A stretch of 64,000 nt of DNA, from positions 248,001-312,000 of the forward strand of contig NW_026251732.1 in NCBI RefSeq assembly GCF_025024155.1, given 5' to 3'. A model generated the notes under the pieces. It was not told where the DNA came from. It made no database searches and saw only the letters and a list, made by a program, of their open reading frames with translations. Source of the stretch: Gamsiella multidivaricata. Lineage: Eukaryota; Mortierellomycota; Mortierellomycetes; Mortierellales; Mortierellaceae. The position numbers and the translations under genes are program-made. Positions 3,564-36,434 of the stretch are shown here, piece by piece. Position 1 is the first letter of the stretch; each line of letters begins with the position of its first letter.

Positions 3564-5909
3564 ATGATTATCGATTTGCAATTCATTGACATCCCGTTAT
3601 TTTCGACCTCCTTAGCGTACGAGAGTGTCAAAAACAAAATCATTGCGACACAGCAGCGACGGTGGCAAGCCCTCAGTGAATACTGTCAGTGGCAACTGTG
3701 GGATCGTGAACCTGTCTTTGTTGAGCACGAATACGATCAAGAGAGAGCAGCGCAGAGATCAATGTCTGCGACATTAAACACTACAGCCCCTACGATGAGC
3801 CTGCTTGTTCACTATCACTCTCCTTCACCACATGTGCCTGCAGGTGCAGGTGCAATGCACTCACAAGAAGTCGGACTTGAGTTCGGCCCCAGCATCCATA
3901 AACCCTATTACGCCCAAGGGGGGCCAATGAGAGCCGACAGTGGAGTGTGCAGCAACGTGAACAAGAAGAAGAGCCATGTTCGATCATCATTAACGGAGGC
4001 AGGGTGGACACCGACGGGCAGGGCTACGCTGAACAAGGATAGCCGAAGACGACAGGGAGGGGAGCGCTCAGCGGAGCCTAGACCGGATGCGGAGTTGGAC
4101 CTGGCCCGTGAGCCAATAATGAAATCCGATAGGGCTGAGAGGTCCTCCTCTCCTTCTCCTCCTCCTCCGCCAGAGATAACGTTATCACTGTCTTCAAACA
4201 CACAGTTGACATCTTGTGCAGCATCCATGCTATGCGTGCCTTCTTCCTCTTCTCTCCATTGCCCTTCTTCGATCAGCTCTATACCACATAGCCCTCCTCT
4301 GCCGCCCTCATCTTCATCCCCACCACCTACAGCACCAGCACTCAACTCATGTTTTATCGCCAGTCCAAGCATGCCAGTCGCAACACTCTCGCCTCCATGC
4401 TCTCAGTCGCTCACAGCCAAATGCTCGAAACCACACCCTGACTGTCCGCCGTCGCCGTCGGTCCTGGCATCGTCTCTGCAGACGGTGAGATATGCCAGCG
4501 AGCGTGGTAGGCACCTGGCTAGGCAGTCAAGGACAAGTCTCCACAGACTGCTAGACTCAGTCATGGACAGTACCCCGCCCTCACTGGCAGAGTCCAATTC
4601 CAGGCACTATTTTTATTCCGAAAATAATTGCTCGTCCAATATCAACACAGCCCCTGGATCGTCTGCTATCACCTCATCGCACACTGCAATCATATCAGCA
4701 CACCGACCGACGATAGGTCCACGAGCGAGTACCAAAGCCAAGTTCTTTGTCTGCGACGAGGACAGTGAGGAGGAATTAGAGACAGGATCTTTGGATCAAG
4801 ATATTGACCGGGGCACAGGCGCCCTTCAAGCAATGCCGAATATGGAACCCAAATGCGACCGTGGTCAGGAGCGCGTACATGGCGATCAGAGTGAATTCGA
4901 AGACGATAAAAAGAGCTTTCCCGGATTGGCGGTACCACATACTCACCACCGGATATACTTCCAGCACCCGTCGATTGCTTGCGCTTCTGGGGTGGAGGGG
5001 AGGAGGCAGTCGCTGCTCTCAGATTTGTTTATGGCAGAAAAACTCTTGGCGGCTCAGCGCGCAGCATTAAACAAAGGAGCACAGGGCATTGCGGCACAGA
5101 AGACTCCATCGACATTGTCAAATTCGTCCTCATGCTGCCACAGCACTGCAAATTCCGATGGAGAGGCTTCACCATCCAAGACTACTTTGCTTCACCAGCA
5201 TTATCGCTCAACTCGGGAACAGCCGCACCAGACAATATCTGAATTAGAACATCAGTTCCTTCAATCCAACCAAAGCCAGCGTTTTGGCGATCATCTCCCT
5301 GCCCAGCAGCATGACGATCTGGTTGTGACCAAGGATGTAACCAGTTATGACAGGACGCCTAGCTCGCCCTTGAGGAGGACCAAAAAATCCATGTTCAAGA
5401 AGCTGGACGAGCTGGCAGTGGATACTGCGCTCACGGAGGACACTTCAGAAAGGGCGGCATATCTCTCGCCAGCATCCTTGCCACAGTTTGCGCCACCTTT
5501 ATCCATTCCATTTCCAGTCGCGCCAGCAACAACTGCATCCGACAAAGCCATTTGTAAAACAAATCTTGTAACAACATTACCATCAGCTTCTGCACTTCCC
5601 CCATTCAAGTGCTCAACCAAACAAAATAATCTCTCCACTCCACCATCATCCGCAGTCAAGACCTGCCGCTGTACACCGGCGACGCCGACCACAACTACTG
5701 CCTTTGCGACTGCGACATCGAAATACACAGCGACTGCGTCATCAGAATCTGCCGCGAGTATCGCTGCCGCTGCTGCCAATTCTGTTGGCGGAGGGGGCGT
5801 GTTTTCGGGCTGGTCCCGAGTATATCATGTCCAGACACAGGTCCATTCGTTGTATGGACAGTTGACTTCATCCATTCAGCGCGCACTTTCGACTGCTACG
5901 GCAACGTAG
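3564..5909 (+). CDS. Large low-complexity protein, unknown function
   Basis: A single open frame of 781 codons from ATG 3564 to TAG 5907-5909. It is rich in Ser, Pro, Thr and Ala with homopolymer-like Ser/Pro stretches (residues about 195-260) and an Ala/Gly tract near the end, so most of it is probably disordered. Three short conserved-looking islands stand out. One is an acidic KFFVCDEDSEEELE segment (about residue 392). The second is a predicted helix, RRQSLLSDLFMAEKLLAAQ (about 480-500). The third is KSMFKKLDELAVDTALTED (about 610-630). Islands of the type K-F-F-x-acidic followed by a leucine-rich helix occur in fungal nitrogen-regulation-associated DUF3295-type proteins, but this match is from memory and weak. 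Upstream exons cannot be excluded. Coding status is supported by frame length and composition. Confidence 0.6.
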   Translation: MIIDLQFIDIPLFSTSLAYESVKNKIIATQQRRWQALSEYCQWQLWDREPVFVEHEYDQERAAQRSMSATLNTTAPTMSLLVHYHSPSPHVPAGAGAMHSQEVGLEFGPSIHKPYYAQGGPMRADSGVCSNVNKKKSHVRSSLTEAGWTPTGRATLNKDSRRRQGGERSAEPRPDAELDLAREPIMKSDRAERSSSPSPPPPPEITLSLSSNTQLTSCAASMLCVPSSSSLHCPSSISSIPHSPPLPPSSSSPPPTAPALNSCFIASPSMPVATLSPPCSQSLTAKCSKPHPDCPPSPSVLASSLQTVRYASERGRHLARQSRTSLHRLLDSVMDSTPPSLAESNSRHYFYSENNCSSNINTAPGSSAITSSHTAIISAHRPTIGPRASTKAKFFVCDEDSEEELETGSLDQDIDRGTGALQAMPNMEPKCDRGQERVHGDQSEFEDDKKSFPGLAVPHTHHRIYFQHPSIACASGVEGRRQSLLSDLFMAEKLLAAQRAALNKGAQGIAAQKTPSTLSNSSSCCHSTANSDGEASPSKTTLLHQHYRSTREQPHQTISELEHQFLQSNQSQRFGDHLPAQQHDDLVVTKDVTSYDRTPSSPLRRTKKSMFKKLDELAVDTALTEDTSERAAYLSPASLPQFAPPLSIPFPVAPATTASDKAICKTNLVTTLPSASALPPFKCSTKQNNLSTPPSSAVKTCRCTPATPTTTTAFATATSKYTATASSESAASIAAAAANSVGGGGVFSGWSRVYHVQTQVHSLYGQLTSSIQRALSTATAT

Positions 5910-6626
5910 GAAGCCATTCAGGAATAAACACATACAGCCACGTAGCTATTCAAAGACAGCTACATTACATTCATACTCTTTGTTTTATTAGGAATGGTAA
6001 TTCCAGGCAGATAAAATTGCTTCCTGCATGAAGAAATGGCACTGGCATCAGAAATAGTACTAGAGCGCTCCGCAAAGTGAACAAAGGGAAATGCCATGGA
6101 GGAAAGATAGGTTTTATTGACCTAGATAGCCATACGACCAGCACAGTTTGCAGCAAAGCCTAGAATAGACAGCTTGATTAACGTGATGGGTAGTACCGAG
6201 TAAGAACTAGATGATCTGCCTGGAAGCAAGGTTCTACTTGTTATGAGGATAGAGACCGATGGAAGTGTAGCCGCAGTAGTAGTACGCGATCGTGCGAATG
6301 AAAGAGTGGAAGACAACGAGGTGCGAGATAGGGGACTCGCGCGGTAGTTGATACCGGAGTAGCATTGTGCTTATGGTGCCTACGTGGGTGGTAGGTTTGG
6401 AGAAGAGAGAGGCGGTGGGCCTTGGGGATGATGATAATGATATTATGATGATGGTATCAATGGACTCTTAGGATTCGACGAGGTAGAAGAGGTACCCCAG
6501 TATTCGGGTGCGCTGCTCTAGAAGCCATGCATCAAATCACAGAACTAATAAAAGCTGTCAGAAGCAGACGTATAAGAAAAGAAGCTGTGGGCAACAGCAT
6601 CTAACAATCAACGGACACGATCATGG
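5910..6626. other. Intergenic region
   Basis: Nothing identifiable. It contains the 3' flank of the 781-codon gene and ATGATG-rich sequence around 6425-6450. Confidence 0.5.
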
Positions 6627-6860
6627 CTAGGCCGAGACTCTGTGTTCTAGGCAGCCTTGACATTTGAGGGACCTTGAAACGACGTGTGAGAACCCGCCGA
6701 CCTTGGGGATAGACAATGCGACGACGAGGCAGTAGACACCGGCAATGGCGAATGATATCTTCCAATGCACGAAGAAGCCGAAGTACTTGGGGGGGGGGGG
6801 GGGAAGAGGATGTTGGCGGGTATCGGTGCTGGCTTGGATTTCGAGAAGCATGATGTACAA
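6627..6860 (-). pseudogene. Fragment resembling an ELO/GNS1-type fatty-acid elongase N-terminus
   Basis: The minus-strand frame reads a proline run, then KYFGFFVHWKISFAIAGVYC followed by a VVALSIPKVGG segment and a HVVSRS tail. The spacing F-F-x2-W-K-x3-A-I-A-x2-Y, then P-K-V-G-x2-S-x-V-V, is what I recall for the first membrane segment of fungal long-chain fatty-acid elongases. The frame stops soon after, no HxxHH catalytic box follows, and the proline run comes from a 15-G tract (6789-6803). I read it as a decayed single-exon fragment. It lies next to the left end of the DNA transposon. The identification is by pattern only; it could be an unrelated membrane fragment. Confidence 0.35.
6789..6803. 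repeat. Run of 15 G
   Basis: Uninterrupted G homopolymer, inside the elongase-like fragment. Confidence 0.9.
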
Positions 6861-7140
6861 TACATGTCTCCGGTCGAGGGAGTGATCTGACGAGTATCAA
6901 TTGGAAAGAGCAGAAAAAAGCGAGTAGCAGGTGAATAGATTGAAGAAAAAGGGTATGTTCAAAGAAAGGATTAACCCAGAATACGCAGGTGCCGGTGCGG
7001 GTTGAAACGTGCCTTCGAAAGGTAACTTAAACGGTAATGACATTGCTGGTTAAGATCGGGTGTAGAATGTGGGATACCGACGTGGCGGTGAACCTGCCAT
7101 TGCGGCGGTTTGGGTGCTTCATGGAATCGATACGCGCGTA

Positions 7141-7395: not shown

Positions 7396-9551
7396 ATGTC
7401 TGGACGGAAAGACGTGTCTACTCCTGCTGGATCCCCGGCTCCTGAGGAGCCAGTCGTCACGCCTACAAAGACCGCGCCCACCAAGACCCAGCTTCTGAAT
7501 ATTTCGCCCAGAAGAAGCACGCGACTTATTTCAATCTCCCCCGTCCAGAAAACATTGGACTTTGGCGACTCCCCCCATCGCAACATGGCATCGTTCAACA
7601 GCTCCCCTATCCGCTACGGTGGCAGACCCCAACCAATCCTCCACTTCGCTACGCCGGTACTTCCACTAAAGTCACCCCTAAGCACAACAAGCCTGTCACC
7701 ACCTCTTCTCCAGATCCTGTACCAGGCCCAGGGGGACCGCCTCTAACAAACGACAACGATCCTCCTGTGGTTGATCAAGTCGGTCAAAAGGACAACCCAT
7801 TTTGGAGCGCCGAGTCTTCCGCCGACGCCAGCATTGGCATTGATATGTTCAAGCATGGCAGTTCAGTCTACGTGCCCTCTGAGTACCGACTCCTGGCACA
7901 TGTCTTCAAGAAGCTGACTTCACCTGACACTCCTCCCGCCGTTCAAGACTGGATGAAAATCCTTGGGAGGGGAACATCGCATCAACTGTCAGCTCTGACT
8001 GGTACAGGGGAGCGCACTTGCAGGAAGGCAGTAGCTTTCGCAGAAACTGGATCCATTGACAAGGAGGAGATTGACCGACCGGGACGACCTCTAAGTGAAC
8101 TGGACGAGAACCTTGCAGCCAAGATTCGCGACATCATCACTCGATCTAACAAAAAGAGTATCCCCAACTCAGCTAGCCGTATTTCGAACGAATTGAGGAT
8201 GGAATACAACATCAAGAGGTCTGCACGATCGATTACACGCGACCTCCACAAGCTTGGGATGTACTGGGGAAAAGGTGTGCGTCAGAACATGATGCACGAC
8301 TCACCGGAAAATGCTACCTATCGGCTCGACTATCTTGAACGCCGCTTGAAGAACCTGATTGGCAATGATGGTGAGATCAGATCACGTCGTCCCGAGGTGT
8401 TTTTGGACGAGTCGTATTGTCAGCTTGACCATGCTGCGGCAAACCGATGGGTTCTTAAGAAGGGCGGCATGGTTTCGGAACCAGGTCGGAAACCGCTCCT
8501 TGTCATATTCGCCGCATTCGCTGTGTCATGGAACAAGAACAAGCGGCAGTTGCAGGCCCGATTTGTGCAGGACAGTGTCTACATCTGGCCTGCGATCGGG
8601 AAGTCCCACCTGGCGACGAAGCCGAAAGAAGGCAAGGAACAGTACGACTCTGCGCTGTGGCGCAATGTCCCGAAGGAGATCCGAGATTCCAAGGTCATTG
8701 CTGACAACCGCGATTATCATGGAAACTTCTCAGCAGATTTATTCGACAGCATCTTCAAACGGCTATGCATAAACCTTGGCAAAATGGGATACGGTCCTTG
8801 CAATATTCACTTGGACGGTGCTTCATACCACTTTCGCAAAATCAACAAAAAGCCTACCAGCTCCACCAAGGTGGATGATATGCTCAAATGGTTCCAGGAC
8901 GGGGGCCATGAACTGCCGGCGACTACACGGCCAAATGGAAAACCAACCAAAGCGGAAATGTTGCAGCACATCAAAGACCATACCGATCGATCTAGTTATA
9001 CCATTTATGACATTGCAGCTGGCAATGGTGGCCACTTTATATACAAAACTCCTCCCTACCATTGCGAGCTCCAGCCAATTGAGAAGATCTGGGTCATCGT
9101 CAAGCAGATGGTCGCTAGCCAAACCACAGGGAACCTGTCACGCTTGAATCTCAAGAGGATGCTTGATAGACATTTTGTTGACACACCTTCCAGTACTTTT
9201 ATCTCTGTGTGGAAAGCCAGTGTTAGAATCGGAAGAGAGCAATATGCAGCCGGTAATAAACCAGCGCAAGCTTCCTTGACAGCAACGCCTTTAGTGGAAG
9301 GGCCTGAGGAGGATGAGGAGAACTATGAAGAGATGGTACTGAGTGTGGATCTTATGGGAGAAGAGGCATGGACAAGAGCCCTTGAGGTGGTAAACGCTGC
9401 TGATCCCTATGAAAATGGCAACCTTTTCATTATGGAGCCGTCATCAACGGATGATCTAGAGAACGACCGCGACGATGTCCACGATGGCTATGCAGGCATC
9501 GGGGATGATGGTGTTGAAATTTGTCTGGCCGAGGATGGCCTCAGGAAGTAG
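7396..9551 (+). CDS. DDE transposase (IS630/Tc1-like), N-terminal region frame-disrupted
   Basis: The main frame (7767-9551, 594 codons) has an N-terminal helix-turn-helix/winged region (about residues 65-175) and a DDE_3-type catalytic core. The catalytic triad is visible: D214 in FLDES, D350 in HLDGASYH and E439 in the L-Q-P-I-E-K-I-W motif, which corresponds to the usual N-P-I-E. The C-terminus is acidic. A basic, proline-rich N-terminal stretch lies in another frame from ATG 7396 to 7746. The main frame stays open upstream to about 7620, so a single indel or a small unrecognised intron between about 7600 and 7740 would join them. The core looks intact. It would cut and paste DNA between TA sites using the flanking TIRs. 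A shorter start at a Met in the main frame is possible. Confidence 0.8.
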
Positions 9552-9790: not shown

Positions 9791-9924
9791 ACGCGTGTTC
9801 ACAACCCTAGACGTCGTGAATGTCGTGCAGATTGGCTGGACCCTTTGGACGGAAATAAGTATTTTTGAAGGATGGCAATAAGGACCTTCAGTGTCTCTCG
9901 TACCGTCTTCGCAAACCACCTTTC

Positions 9925-10061
9925 GCTCCCCAATAAATACCCGCGTGGAAGGAAAAAAAATAGATCTTTCCACCTTTCCATCCCTCGATCATTTCTCAGT
10001 CATTACATCCTCCCTCTACTGTCTTTTTCCCATTGCCACTATTATCCACATATCCCTCGCC
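9925..10061 (+). promoter_or_regulatory. Putative promoter and leader of the XPG-Fanzor gene
   Basis: An AATAAATA box at about 9931 is followed by a pyrimidine-rich leader and the strong start context CGCCATGGG at 10062. This is inferred from position and composition only. Confidence 0.35.
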
Positions 10062-13000
10062 ATGGGGGTGCTGAAACTTTGGCAGTTTATCAAAGAACAA
10101 GGATACATTGCCCTCCTCAAAGCATTCCCTACCACCCCTTCACCAAACACTCGTTATCACATTGACATTCTCGGTTCGTTCTTTTCAGTCATTCGCCGCT
10201 GTTTCCTTAACCCTGACACGACAGTCGCATGTATCAACTTCGAACGACATTTGATCGCCTGTCAGTTTCCCAAGGCAACGACGATTCTGCACATGGACGG
10301 ACCTTCTCCTGCTGAGAAGAACGCCACCAACGAAGACCGTCAATCGAAACGCACAAAAGCCCTTTCCAAGACCAACAAGCTCTTGACCAACATGGAAGAG
10401 ACCCTCGAGAACAACAGAAAACTACGGAAACAGCAGTTCAAGTCTGTCAACAAGGCCATTGTTGACTCCTTCTATTTCAATCATGATCTCCGCCAAGCAC
10501 TTGTCCAGCATCTTGTCACAAATGGCTGGAATGTCTGCAGATGCCGTTCGGAAGCAGATACCTGCATTGGGTCCATTTGCCAGCAACAGGATATTATCAT
10601 CACTCGTGACAGTGACTCGCTTATCTACAGCAACATCACCACAATCTGGAGACCCTTTAGCCGAAACCGGTACCTCGTCTATAATATCCCGGAACTATTA
10701 CGCCACCTTCAGCTCTCAAGAGCAGGATTGACTACCCTTGGAGTCGTTACCCAGAACGACTACGGCAAGGGGATCCACAAGCTCGGTGTCAAGACAAATT
10801 TCATGATTATTTTGGCTCTGGAAAAGGATGGTAAGCCGAAATAGACTATGTATTCTCCCTTGTTTTCATTGCCTTATTCATCTCCATCTCACCTTTTTTA
10901 TTTTTCTTTTGTTCAGTTCCGTCGACGGCTGCGAGTGTTCAGGGGCTTGTTCAGGCCTACTTGGTACACACTACTATATCTAGCAAGCACCCGACGGAGG
11001 GACTATTTGACTCGGCTATTCGGATCTTTACCGTACAGCAGTGTACGACTCTTACTCTACCCCACATTCAGGATCCCATTAACGAGCTACAGGAGATGAC
11101 GCAAAGGGTCGCAGACATTCGCCTGCATCTCAAGATTAGCCGACAAACATCAAGGTACAGGCCCACGTTATGATAATGAACAAATTCAGGTTTCTTGACG
11201 GCAAAAAAAAAGGATCTTTTTTTTAACGGCTGTGTTGATGGATGCCCACCATTTTTAGATCCGTCCCTGGTGGTCAAGAAGAAGAGCGAACAACAGATTT
11301 CATTCGATACTCCACTGTTGATCGTCCTCTGAGTCAGTTACCGCCTCTGCACAGCTCGGGAAGACAGTACAAGTATCGGGAACGCTATGCGATTAAAACT
11401 CGATCACGTCTCATCCAGCACGAGAAGCCCGACATATTCAAGCAGTACGTCTGGAAGGCTCCAAAAGAGAATACCAAGTCAACCAACAATTCCAGCAGTA
11501 CCATAAGCACCAGCACCAGTACCGAGGCGGGCCCCAGCACAAGTACCAACGTCGGCGCGACCAATCCGCCACCGAAAAAGAAAAAAAAGTCTACGCCCAA
11601 AAAGGCTCAACTTGCAGCGGATGAGATGACCAAGATTCAACTGATCAGAGCGATGCAAATAGAGCACCCTCTTCGAACCTTGGACATTGGAACCTTGAAG
11701 GCGAATACGTCTCGAGCACTAAAGAAGGAGGTTCCATACGACGAGGATCTACAGGACAAGCTTCTGCACGCTGTGACCACCTGTCTCTCTGATATCTCTA
11801 ACCTGGCTTCGAAATCGGAACATGCGTGCCAACAGGTTATTGGTCAGTACCTAGAAAGCCTGTCAGTCGATCACCTTGACGAGGACGACAGAACCATTCT
11901 TAGCTACTTGACTCCTCACTTCTCGGTCCAGGAAATCGTGCGGCTAAAAAAGGCACCACCCCGAACCCAGAAGATAAGTCATCTGACGACGAGGACGACT
12001 CCGAGGCCAGCAACGAAAACAAGAACTCTCCAGTTGGATTCTTCCTGTCGCTTCTGATTGCCATCTACAAGGCCAGCACTCCTCGGGGAAAAAAGAAGGC
12101 GAGTGCAGCTGCGGCTGTGTGCTTGTTCTTACGTAAAGCCAAAGACTATTTGCCACCGAAAACTGGCAGTGGTAGGTTTGCCTCTTATAATTGTGGCAGT
12201 AATGTGACCTATTGTAGAACCAACTCTCTAATAGCTTCTCATTATCTTCTCCATTTCTTATTTACACGCACTACCTGCAGAATCTTACAACAACCCCTCA
12301 GTCTTTCTCCAGTCCACAGCGAAGCAACTCGCAACTGAGTACAGAAGGCACTTCAAGAACGGTTCCTTTGATCTTTCCAAAAAGGTAATAACAATTCAAA
12401 TGGTTCGAGACCCTGATTACAAGAAACGTGCCTGACATTATTTCTTTTTTCTTCTCTTCATTTCCGCTGTAGATCCAGCAGCAGAAGAAGAAAGGACTCT
12501 TGCCCCAGAGTACCCCAGGTCGTGTCGATCCAGACAAGACTCCAGCGGAGAACTTTATCATTCCGAACAGAGCCATCGGAAGAAGTTGGCGACTATCACC
12601 AATGTCACCCCGCGGAAGCAAGTTCGTCAGTCTCTCGGAGGATGATCTGGTCAAGGTCTTTTGGAAAGACGAAACGCTACGGAAACAGCTCCGGCTCTAT
12701 ACCCATTCAACTGTCATCAAATCTGTCCCAGAATCTGGCCGCGTTGCTCAAGATGACGTGGTTGGGTGGCTCAAGAACCTCGACCCGGGAGAGTTGATCA
12801 ACAGGCTTTTGACCGACATTGGAAGATTTACAAAGGAAGAGAGGAGGAAAAAGAAGCACTGGTCACGATCCGCGCACCGTATGTCGATTGGCGATATAAC
12901 TGCTCACATCTCCAACATTCGGCACAAGGATTTCAATCCCAAGTTTTCGTATTCGGGAAAGGGCTATGCTCTCCGAGGATCGATCAAGACGGACGGATTT

Positions 13001-14347
13001 CGGATCCAGCTGCTCGCCTTCAAATTGAACGAGCTCAAGTGTGTCAAGTACCAACGATTGGATGAGGACAAGCTACCAGACCCGCTAACATCGACGCTTA
13101 GAGGCGCCGACCACTACCTCACCGAGATCCGAAACGTGGTTAAGTCAAAGGAGGACGTCAAGAGGATCTGGAAATGCGACCCGGAGGATATCAAGATTCT
13201 CGGGATTGACTTGGGAAAAGCGTTTGTTGTCGGTGCCAGTGCCCTCTTACCCTCGTCCGCACCAACCGCACCAACTGATGGAGTGGAACAAGGAGCCATC
13301 ACCGAGATCGGTATACCCTTGTCAACACAATTCCACAACCTGGCAGTCAGTCAGAAGGCAGTCTACCAGCCAACATTCAAAAACAGAAGGTGGCTCGACC
13401 AAAGAAAAAAACGTGCGGCCGAGGGCGAGACGTCAATCGCTCACGTCGAGTCCAACCTGCCTCCACTCCGCGGCCCAGATTCATCGATCACCAAATTTGT
13501 CAAGGAGTCAAAGGACAAAGAGTCGGATCTCGATACATTTTACAACAGCGTTGTACTCAAGAAACATAACTGGGATGCCCGCAGAGCAAGAGACCAGGAA
13601 TTCAAACTTGTCGCGAAACGTCTTCTGGAGATGGTGGGAGGTACCCCAGGCGCGAAACGGGATGACAAGAACAAGGTCATTATCGGCATAGGACTCGGAG
13701 AGTTCTCTTCGAACTCGCGCTTGTCCTCCCTTCACACAGCGTTTTCCACGTACTTTATTCAACTGGTAAGTAATTAAACGTGTTTGTACCCACTTTTTTA
13801 CTGACGATGCAAGGATCCTAATTTTTTTTACTCTGCTATTGTTTTATTTAGGCGCGATCCTTGGGATATATTGTAGTTGGTGTGAACGAATATTACACTT
13901 CAAAGAGATGTCCGGTCTGTCACGAGTTTGTTGGCCAAGTCGACATCCGTCAGCTCTATTGCCCAACGCCAACATGCGGAGCCAAGATCCACCGAGACGT
14001 GATGGCAGGTCACAATATGTCCAATATCATTCAGGGCAGAGACCTGTGCTGGTTGATTTATTTGGTTAGACCTTGTCAACTACAGGGGGTTTGCTTAACA
14101 AAATATTCATAATTGACAAGGTCTAACCAAATAAATCAACTAGCACCTTCTTCACCAGCAGCGACCTCACTGTTATCAGCCGTACGACAAGGACGGAAAT
14201 TACATTTGGGAAATGGAAGACTGCGGTCAGTCTGTCGAGTCTTTGATGGGACGATTAGGTGTCAAGGAGGCGGAACAACCAGAAGAATGGATGGCACTGG
14301 AAGAGGAGGAGACTGAGCCAGATCGGCGCAAGAGACCAGTGGCATAA
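10062..14347 (+). CDS. XPG/FEN1-like nuclease fused to Fanzor (eukaryotic TnpB-like) nuclease
   Basis: Exons: 10062-10830, 10917-11154, 11259-12171, 12281-12384, 12473-13765, 13852-14064, 14144-14347. The product is about 1244 aa if one -1 shift is made at 11946-11952 and the last intron is real. The N-terminus (1-255) begins MGVLKLWQF, like FEN1/XPG enzymes. It keeps an acidic residue at each position expected for the two-metal site: D35, D79 (MDG-x-P), E164/D166 (SEADTC), D183/D185 (RDSDSL) and D233 (NDYGKG, helix-hairpin region). A Ser/Thr/Lys-rich linker follows (about 400-460). The C-terminus is Fanzor/TnpB-like: RuvC-I D921 in GIDLGK, RuvC-II E1085 in GIGLGEFSS, zinc ribbon C1126/C1129/C1143/C1148, and RuvC-III D1155 in HRDVMAGHNMSNI. 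Fanzors are RNA-guided DNA nucleases carried by eukaryotic transposons. The fused flap-nuclease domain suggests a second DNA-cutting or processing step (inference). Whether it makes active protein depends on the frameshift and the 3' insertion. Confidence 0.8.
11946..11952 (+). promoter_or_regulatory. A_AAA_AAG slippery heptamer, possible -1 ribosomal frameshift site
   Basis: The upstream frame reads CTA AAA AAG. The downstream coding frame (GGC ACC ACC ... through the donor at 12172 and into well-phased later exons) is the -1 frame and starts exactly at G11952. The heptamer is therefore in the phase needed for -1 slippage. Without a shift, translation ends at 12057. A plain one-base loss from a seven-A run would give the same picture. 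Confidence 0.45.
14046..14146. mobile_element. 101-bp palindromic (MITE-like) insertion in the last coding part of XPG-Fanzor
   Basis: Arms 14046-14079 and 14113-14146 are inverted copies, perfect over the inner 28 bp with one mismatch in the outer six, around a 33-bp spacer. The relic copy at 34.5-36.4 kb continues from its VEYNICNVV region straight into a HLLHQQ motif, which here resumes immediately after the palindrome (14144). The element therefore looks inserted. CT abuts both ends and could be a 2-bp duplication. The 3' arm also supplies a branch-like CTAAC (14123-14127) and an AG at 14142-14143, so the insert may be spliced as a 79-nt intron (14065-14143) that keeps the frame. The donor, GTTAGA, is weak. 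Confidence 0.65.
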
Positions 14348-14372: not shown

Positions 14373-14410
14373 CAGACCAATTTGTGTGTATAAGTCAATA
14401 CATTGGTCTG
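14373..14410 (+). ncRNA. 3'-flank hairpin of the XPG-Fanzor gene, candidate guide-RNA or element-end structure
   Basis: CAGACCAAT (14373-14381) and ATTGGTCTG (14402-14410) form a 9-bp perfect stem with a 20-nt loop, starting 26 nt after the stop codon. In TnpB and characterised Fanzors the guide RNA comes from the 3' end of the element, overlapping or following the ORF, so the position is suggestive. A simple 3'-UTR hairpin is the alternative. Confidence 0.25.
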
Positions 14411-14613
14411 CGTTTGGGTGGCAGTGTAGGGCGTGCAACTATGGCATTTCGATGACGTAGTTTACGCCTGAAATGTACTGCTACCCAACGTGCCTGAAGG
14501 CCCATTGTCGCTCCAAAGCCAAAAAGGACCTCTTTCCCTTCCTCTTCTCCATCCCTTTAACCCGACGTCGGTCATCATCATCGCGAAGGGCACGCCATGC
14601 ACCCCTGTCCAGC

Positions 14614-34489: not shown

Positions 34490-36434
34490 TGTGTGTAGTC
34501 TTGCATCTTGCATCCAAGGATAGTGCCCTTCCTTATCTACTGGCTGAAGATAGAGCGGCCATTGTTGGTGGAGTAAATGGCTGCGAACGACGTTACAAAT
34601 GTTATACTCTACCATAATATCCCGGCGCATGAAAGTGCCGCAGGTTGAGCAGTATAGCCTGCGACAGACTTCTCGCACGTCGGGCACCTCTTCGAAGTAA
34701 TACTCATTCACTCTAACTACAATGTAGTCTAGGGACCTGGCCTTGAGACAAAGTCAACAAAAACATAAAACGATTCTACATAACTTCAAATCTCTAGTAA
34801 TAGCGCTCTTACTTTCTGAACGAAGTGCGACTGAAAGGACTCGTGCAAAGAGGAAAGTCTCGTCTTGGTCGAAAACTTGTCCAGACCAATCCCAATCACA
34901 ACCATGTTGACTTCCTCTCTCTTTCTGCCGATCGATCCTCCGACCAACTTGAGTAGGCGATCCGGTATGAGTCTGTACTCCGCATCCCTGGCTCTTCTCG
35001 CGTCCCACTTATGTTTCTTGAACCGGTGGTTGCCGTCGTAAAATCATCAAGTCGTCCCTCTACTCTCTCCAGTTCCGTAGCATAGCTCGCAAAGCTAGCT
35101 CCATCACCGCGTAGTGGTGGCAGTTTAATCTCAATGCTGCTGATGGATTCTATTCCGTCACCTAGTACAATGCTTTGTTACTCCTCCATCCGTCTTCTGT
35201 GCTTGAACGTGGACTAGTACACAGCCTTCTACTTCACTGCGAGATTGTGATAAGTGAGAGGAACGGAAGTTGGTGTTGTATCCTTGGGAGTTGCTCATGT
35301 CGACATCGTCATCCTTTCTTCCTGGCTCCGGTGTCGTACTGCCGGGATCATCGTCCTTTGGTAGCAATGCGTTGGTTCCGAGTACACAGGCTGGCCGAGA
35401 TCGTGCCCTAGGACCTTGATTTGATCTGGCGCACATCCCCATAGGCTGGTGACGTCCTGATGGGTCTTCACAATATTTCGGACCTCGACCAAATAATAAT
35501 CCATTTATTCGACAGTGAATGTGATTCGAAGGGGCATGACACTCTGCGGGAATCGCCTGTATCGGACTGGCTGTAATTCTTTTAAATTGAAAGCCGACAG
35601 GTGAAGGCAGAAACCGTCTGTCCGAATGGAGCCCCTGTGAACATAGCCGCGTTCCTTATAAGCTATAGGATCAAGGTTGGTCTACCGAATGGATTGAAAA
35701 TGTTCCCGCATCCTGATCAAGTCTATTACGGACGTCGAATCCTTGTAATCTCGGGGTCCTTTGCGTGGCTCACACCTGCCGATATTCGAAAGCATCTCTG
35801 TGATAAGGAACCCAAGATCCTTCTGCCCAAGTCAATTCATTAGGACCTGCTGAGAAGGAATGATGTCCTTGTTCTCGTAGTCCACCAGTACTAGCTCCCG
35901 GAGTTTTTTCTTCAGCGCAGCATTTTGCCAAAACAAGATACCGAGCTCACACTCAGAGAACGACATGAAAGGCTGCTCTGTGCCCGTTAGTAGGGCCGTC
36001 TGGTGATAACTCTTGGGACCAATAGAAGGCCGAGCTAAGAGTTTTCTGGTGTCGATGAACTGGTGTTTTCGTACGCGTAGCTTTTTACCCACACAAACCT
36101 CAAGCTCATGCATACATTTATCGGCACGTTCAACAGCTTTCTTGCGAAGATTTTCTCGATGCACTTGAGTAGGTTCTTTTTCGACCGAAGGAAGGCCGTT
36201 CAGGTAAAGAACCAAGTTCGTCCGTGTCCCAAGCTTCAGTATCTCTCGCACGACAATGCGGTGAGCATCATCCATAAGGTACGAGGAATAAACGTAGAGA
36301 ATGGTAACATAAAAAGACCCAATGATATCGACTCGAATCGCCGAATCGTGGTCAATGGAACTGGGGAGATTGGATAAATGGGGGGACTGATAGCGAAGAA
36401 CGGGTTCATACTTTTTCTTTTTAGAAAGGGTCAC
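34490..36434 (-). pseudogene. Decayed second copy of the XPG-Fanzor gene
   Basis: Pieces collinear with the gene at 10-14 kb run down the minus strand. At 36330-36000, RVDIIGSFYVTILYVY parallels HIDILGSFFSVIRR of the FEN1-like domain, but the metal-site MDG has become LNG. At about 35960, PFMSFSECELGILFWQNAAL parallels KFVSLSEDDLVKVFWKDETL. At about 35630, GSIRTDGF parallels GSIKTDGF. At 35500-35400, DYYLVEVRNIVKTHQDV and IKVLGHDLGQPVYS cover RuvC-I. At about 34880, GIGLDKFSTKTRLSSLHESF covers RuvC-II with the catalytic Glu changed. At 34700-34580, VNEYY, then a frameshifted zinc ribbon and RRDIMVEYNICNVV cover RuvC-III, followed by HLLHQQ. Much of the XPG I-region and linker is deleted, and several frames are broken. 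It shows that the fusion architecture belongs to a dispersed family. Confidence 0.8.

Follow-up and report, generated by a model that had tools for sequence, protein, structure and literature searches.

A gene joining two nuclease domains

The window analysed here is a stretch of 64,000 nucleotides of Gamsiella multidivaricata (NCBI RefSeq assembly GCF_025024155.1, contig NW_026251732.1, positions 248,001 to 312,000). Region 10062-14347 of the window carries a gene in which a FEN1/XPG-type nuclease is followed by a linker and a Fanzor-like RuvC nuclease. As an earlier note on this DNA had proposed, the region can be read as a single spliced gene on the plus strand, with seven exons and six introns that are all of the GT-AG type (Table 1). 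Residues 1-256 are encoded by exon 1 alone. The acidic residues D35, D79, E164, D166, D183, D185 and D233, which the note had assigned to the two-metal site of FEN1, were all found within this exon, so that no splicing is required to join them, and are conserved in relatives. D79, E164, D166, D183, D185 and D233 are invariant in seven aligned sequences and D35 is present in all rows that reach this position (8 of 12 rows); the fragment P0007 has Asn at the position of D183 (P00xx denotes collected public proteins and L0xx the genome loci, or copies, used in the comparison).

XPG similarity in residues 1-255 was found, as the note had it, by profile search as well as by structure comparison, and the predicted structure of the N-terminal half has the FEN1 fold. 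The curated XPG_I cutoff is passed by relatives in the same genome and by P0035, P0036 and P0039. The window copy itself scores 14.9 bits against a Pfam cutoff of 24.9, and its probable assignment to XPG is based on its relatives, on profile comparisons and on the modelled structure. Weak matches to the 5'-3' exoribonuclease profile XRN_N (E 0.018) and the adjacency of the gene to a structured 3' end (see below) would fit an alternative in which the XPG half acts on RNA. It would trim a guide precursor, made from the 3' region of the same gene, on its 5' side and leave DNA cutting to the RuvC half; guide processing by the nuclease itself is a property of some TnpBs. We consider this improbable, because structure and profile comparisons indicate the DNA enzymes FEN1, EXO1 and XPG and because K86 and R93 are spaced as in FEN1. 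As modelled, the N-terminal half is a FEN1/XPG-type 5' nuclease with a conserved active site, and flap cleavage is its predicted activity.

The C-terminal half matched Cas12f1-like_TNB (OrfB zinc ribbon) in the window with 46.5 bits (cutoff 26.3). The motif D-X(125,275)-[TS][TS]-X-X-[C4 zinc finger]-X(5,50)-RD, described for Fanzor and TnpB proteins (PMC3627910), is present with D920, TS at 1121-1122, CPVC and HRD at 1152-1154, and the motif distances are 151-255 in the nine proteins that have both motifs. The RuvC-I Asp, the zinc ribbon and the RuvC-III Asp named in the earlier note are thus all there, but both Asp residues had been numbered one too high (D921 and D1155 instead of D920 and D1154). 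Its RuvC-II Glu, E1085, did not hold: the residue (E1084 in our numbering, in a GLGxF motif) is K in 6, Q in 4, E in 2 and D in 2 of the 14 proteins, out of 28, in which the motif was found and, since the position varies, it is not the catalytic Glu and was rejected. Conserved instead is E1118, six residues before CxxC. Among 28 proteins scanned, 10 of 10 with the motif have Glu here, as do 12 of 13 distinct matches in the genome, and the residue is invariant in six aligned sequences. Two marks described for Fanzors are a Glu at this distance from the zinc finger and, in RuvC-I, DPG, the latter being nearly exclusive to them (PMC10711439). RuvC triad and zinc ribbon are conserved. The core profile matched LaTranC (2.7e-6), the mimivirus TnpB-like protein L79 (3.2e-6) and Cas-phi3 (6.7e-6).

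Recurrence of the fusion

The genome assembly (37.5 Mb, 180 contigs) contains 121 pieces of the XPG exon and 131 pieces of the zinc-ribbon exon. The XPG pieces group into 101 clusters, and for 70 of these a Fanzor piece lies downstream on the same strand at a distance of up to 8 kb, where ~1.5% per cluster would be expected by chance; this count took in the XPG-exon and zinc-ribbon rows and a hand-picked part of the 136 exon-5 rows. A Pfam search (17 hand-picked rows) added nine pairs, giving 79 of 101.

The same fusion, which the note had suggested looking for in Mortierella-type fungi, was indeed found in other genera of this kind. An initial search of public proteins gave at least 25, all from Mortierella-type genera, 16 of which carry both halves; a search with the Fanzor core gave 80 proteins and a search with alignment A4 at least four. 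Both halves are present in 60 of the 86 collected proteins (profile trained on 12 members, E-values relative to 86 sequences), and P0035, P0036 and P0039 are above the Pfam cutoffs for both. Some of these proteins are labelled 'XPG-I domain-containing' or 'Cas12f1-like TNB domain-containing' in public records. Two proteins of the aphelid Amoeboaphelidium occidentale have the same domain order, with 60 and 68 bits to the XPG profile and ~30% identity in the Fanzor core; the genus and phylum labels are taken from record names. A search for viral relatives gave 304 pattern matches, none of which was confirmed.

The frame break of the window copy lies between the two halves (Table 1), as it might if two neighbouring genes had been joined only through gene prediction. 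This we regard as highly improbable, because the intron phases join in frame on either side of the break, the linker between the halves is conserved across copies and proteins, the aphelid proteins show the same order and 37 of the 38 proteins of at least 1,100 amino acids with the core carry both halves (the exception is P0047). XPG and Fanzor distances are correlated (0.81, 42 proteins), and the two trees have 16 of 39 splits in common, compared with a shuffle mean of 0.2. The ratio of nonsynonymous to synonymous substitution rates (dN/dS) between the window copy and L040 was 0.28 in the XPG part and 0.20 in exon 5 of the Fanzor part; the XPG table spans 0.28-1.24, its high values coming from few changes or from pairs with the frame-shifted L040. 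The checks that were run support the proposal of a flap nuclease fused to a Fanzor-type nuclease.

Structured 3' end

Downstream of the gene, the element ends in a structured region. Widely differing subfamilies have in common a core near TTCGGTGACGTAGT, which lies about 30 bases inside the right end, and nine copies of one subfamily share the same terminal base and continue into nine different flanks. Nine 3' ends fold with z-scores of -0.95 to -4.76, set against only two flank controls (+0.79 and +0.64). Exchange of arms between subfamilies weakened the pairing: that of the original arms was reached by 7 of 720 permutations with six subfamilies and by 10 of 40,320 with eight, two of the latter having their ends set by analogy. 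A search of the 3' end against known RNA families gave three matches, none at the gathering score. Layout and folding point to a candidate guide-RNA scaffold. Two 5'-shortened copies (L028 and G000:C32:72446-72586), one of them ~140 bp, keep the exact 3' end and perhaps resemble the 'ghost' elements without open reading frame (ORF) described for SpuFz1.

Transposon context

Many copies have another gene upstream, in divergent orientation. Its 37 pieces form 24 clusters, of which 19 are within 5 kb of a copy and point away from it (48 hand-compiled copies); two of the remaining five are at contig ends and three have no neighbour in the copy list. Joined from L046, the gene matched the SWIM finger with 20.4 bits (cutoff 19.6), MULE with 18.1 (cutoff 27.6) and an RNaseH-like profile below cutoff. 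L046 has inverted ends, with 24 of 29 bases matching in the aligned part, and a 9-bp direct repeat, GCTCAGCTT, immediately outside both ends. L045, a relative with 99% identity to L046 over the 3' regions, has the XPG exon. In L057 nothing beyond an inverted match of 18 bases (E 0.1-0.25) was seen, and a target duplication was not found; a tandem array with a period of ~278 bases (5299-6928 of this locus) adjoins one element on its left. The remaining loci that were searched, several of which stop short of the left end, gave no convincing one. That the elements have no terminal repeats was dropped as a reading, since the divergent transposase gene showed that the searched range had been too short, and the left boundary of subfamily A was rejected as element end. 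Subtelomeric placement was also rejected, as no TTAGGG run of three or more is present in 61 loci; the contig breaks more likely reflect near-identical copies.

Neither a transposase gene nor a left end or left terminal repeat was found for the window copy, which therefore looks partial. Judged from its sequence, the locus appears to belong to a MuDR-like (Mutator-like) family with many copies, of which it would be a damaged and incomplete one.

Table 1 Features of the XPG-Fanzor copy in the window
Feature	Position	Strand	Basis
5' flank common to L040; left homology limit, not established as true left end of the element	9830..10061	.	search gave no left terminal repeat
Exon 1, FEN1/XPG-type nuclease core (predicted), residues 1-256	10062..10830	+	
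Exon 2, last part of XPG region, plus linker	10917..11154	+	gene model, GT-AG introns
Exon 3, linker, frame break at ~11,938-11,942	11259..12171	+	linker matched in other copies and proteins
Exon 4	12281..12384	+	gene model
Exon 5, WED/RuvC-type part with RuvC-I D920	12473..13765	+	136 matching pieces in this genome
Exon 6, repositioned Glu E1118, C4 zinc ribbon and RuvC-III D1154	13852..14064	+	Cas12f1-like_TNB match
Inverted-repeat (MITE-like) insertion in gene tail	14036..14146	.	absent from L040; copies elsewhere in genome
Exon 7 of the earlier note's model, C-terminal tail	14144..14347	+	
Structured 3' end, candidate guide-RNA scaffold; right end of element at ~14484	14377..14484	+	fold z -2.76, boundary from L054, shared core

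Another copy, L040 (contig C2), has 91% identity to the window over 4,055 bases; its frame, too, is broken in places, and divergence is visibly greater in its 3' part than in its 5' part. L040 is without the insertion of ~110 bp in the tail of the window gene, inside which the last intron of the earlier note's model (14065-14143) lies. This element of ~105-110 bp, similar to miniature inverted-repeat transposable elements (MITEs), itself supplies GT-AG sites, and splicing there would remove the insertion in frame. Diverged copies of it (83%) are located at G000:C122:220692, C101:353323 and C1:1052733, shortly upstream of the XPG start in three other XPG-Fanzor copies.

On the minus strand, at 34586-36371, the window contains a second, degraded XPG-Fanzor copy with zinc-ribbon, RuvC and XPG pieces in the correct order and with stops. 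An open frame of 701 amino acids just upstream of the element (7446-9551) looks Tc1/mariner-like by eye and matched DDE_3 below cutoff (16.4 versus 28.6 bits); it was rejected as part of the element, because the homology to L040 begins only at 9830.

Proposed function

Starting from the fusion and its recurrence, the two conserved active sites, the predicted FEN1 fold, the divergent transposase gene of SWIM/MULE type that accompanies many copies and the structured 3' end at unique flanks, we think it probable that a MuDR-like transposon carries as cargo a protein of ~1,240 amino acids, composed of FEN1/XPG part, linker and Fanzor/TnpB RuvC part, which would combine a guide RNA from the 3' end, a guided cut and flap processing in favour of recombination. 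We infer the guide RNA, the cutting and the role of the flap nuclease. The 3' end would be transcribed as guide RNA, with flanking host sequence as its guide portion, and the RuvC half would cut DNA that matches the guide, such as the emptied donor site after excision, whose repair would copy the element back. The FEN1-like half would cut a single-stranded flap or displaced strand that arises from the RuvC cut or its repair, and thereby favour recombination.

Several observations weigh against this proposal. The window copy, taken as intact in the earlier note, carries, besides the insertion, a frame break at a place where L040 is in frame, and frame breaks or stops are found in the XPG region of L040, L039, L041 and L048, so that many copies may be dead; no copy among those examined is proven intact and many of the public proteins are partial. 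An XPG cluster lies upstream of 69 of 137 Fanzor clusters, which leaves about half without one, perhaps through truncation, contig ends or divergence. Of 20 XPG splits with strong support, 7 disagree with the Fanzor tree, a sign of some recombination. Inverted ends and a 9-bp duplication were seen together in one copy, L046, in which the XPG exon is undetectable. RNAalifold predicted only four pairs from the sequence alignment of the 3' ends. The RuvC-I motif of the window reads DLG, and that of six aligned sequences DLG (4), DGG (1) or DAG (1). The DxG statement is based on these sequences, since the pattern in the protein scan required LG after Asp and its 20 of 20 DLG arose by construction. 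As the DPG mark is absent, the protein is called Fanzor-like and not a member of Fanzor1 or Fanzor2. The core profile matched GtFz1 only with E 0.67 and SpuFz1 only with E 8.1.

The conserved 3' core also overlaps the terminal repeat of L046. Since the core is an inverted end there, transposase binding could explain its conservation, and we infer rather than establish the guide-RNA identity of the 3' end. This overlap, the departure of RuvC-I from DPG and the transposase gene adjoining many copies would suit a protein that is no longer guided by RNA and serves as an accessory of the transposase in processing transposon ends, the 3' hairpin being only a transposase-binding end. Such a role appears unlikely to us, given that the RuvC triad and the zinc ribbon are conserved, that arm exchange favours RNA-like pairing and that the 3' layout equals that of SpuFz1.

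If the proposed RNA-guided cut with flap processing is true, one RNA-guided protein would couple targeting and repair outcome by its own flap endonuclease, which bears on the open question of what Fanzors do for their transposons. It is about evenly balanced, in our judgement, whether these proteins are a lineage of their own among the RNA-guided effectors of eukaryotes, one with two catalytic centres, in which a guided RuvC break and a structure-specific second cut by the flap nuclease would steer repair to transposon copying, and which would be old or mobile enough to have reached Mortierella-type fungi and an aphelid. For what would be a natural two-nuclease enzyme, the many copies and the proteins of many genera make testing feasible now.

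Comparison with known systems

By its sequence anatomy the protein is a transposon nuclease of Fanzor-like kind into which a nuclease of FEN1 type is built. In the main texts searched no paper joined Fanzor with XPG, or XPG with Mortierella transposons; an earlier mention elsewhere is possible. Searches for Fanzor with FEN1, or for a fusion of TnpB with a flap endonuclease, gave only a review on another matter in the text retrieved, one for TnpB with XPG in fungi gave a Cas12a paper, and look-ups of the term in the available parts of the main Fanzor papers found XPG unmentioned. FEN1, XPG/Rad2 and EXO1 share fold and catalytic residues with the N-terminal half but are cellular repair enzymes without an RNA-guided half.

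SpuFz1 of Spizellomyces punctatus is likewise a RuvC/zinc-ribbon nuclease of a multicopy fungal transposon, with a conserved 3' end beside a variable flank, and its guide RNA consists of a conserved 3' part, including the terminal repeat, and 14-15 nt of flank (PMC10432273). It differs in its RuvC-I motif and in its marginal match to our core profile, and XPG is unmentioned in the part of that paper available. Three MuDR-type Fanzor elements of related fungi have inverted ends and 9-bp target duplications, as L046 does, but encode no MuDR transposase, and XPG is unmentioned in the paper text available (PMC3627910). PpFz1 of Parasitella parasitica is a fungal Fanzor1 that likewise has an extra domain, but this FRI domain lies within RuvC, binds cyclophilin and is not a nuclease (PMC11423790). 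In the mariner element PGv-1, too, a Fanzor is found together with a transposase and a further nuclease, but there the further nuclease is a separate, unfused GIY-YIG protein (PMC3627910).
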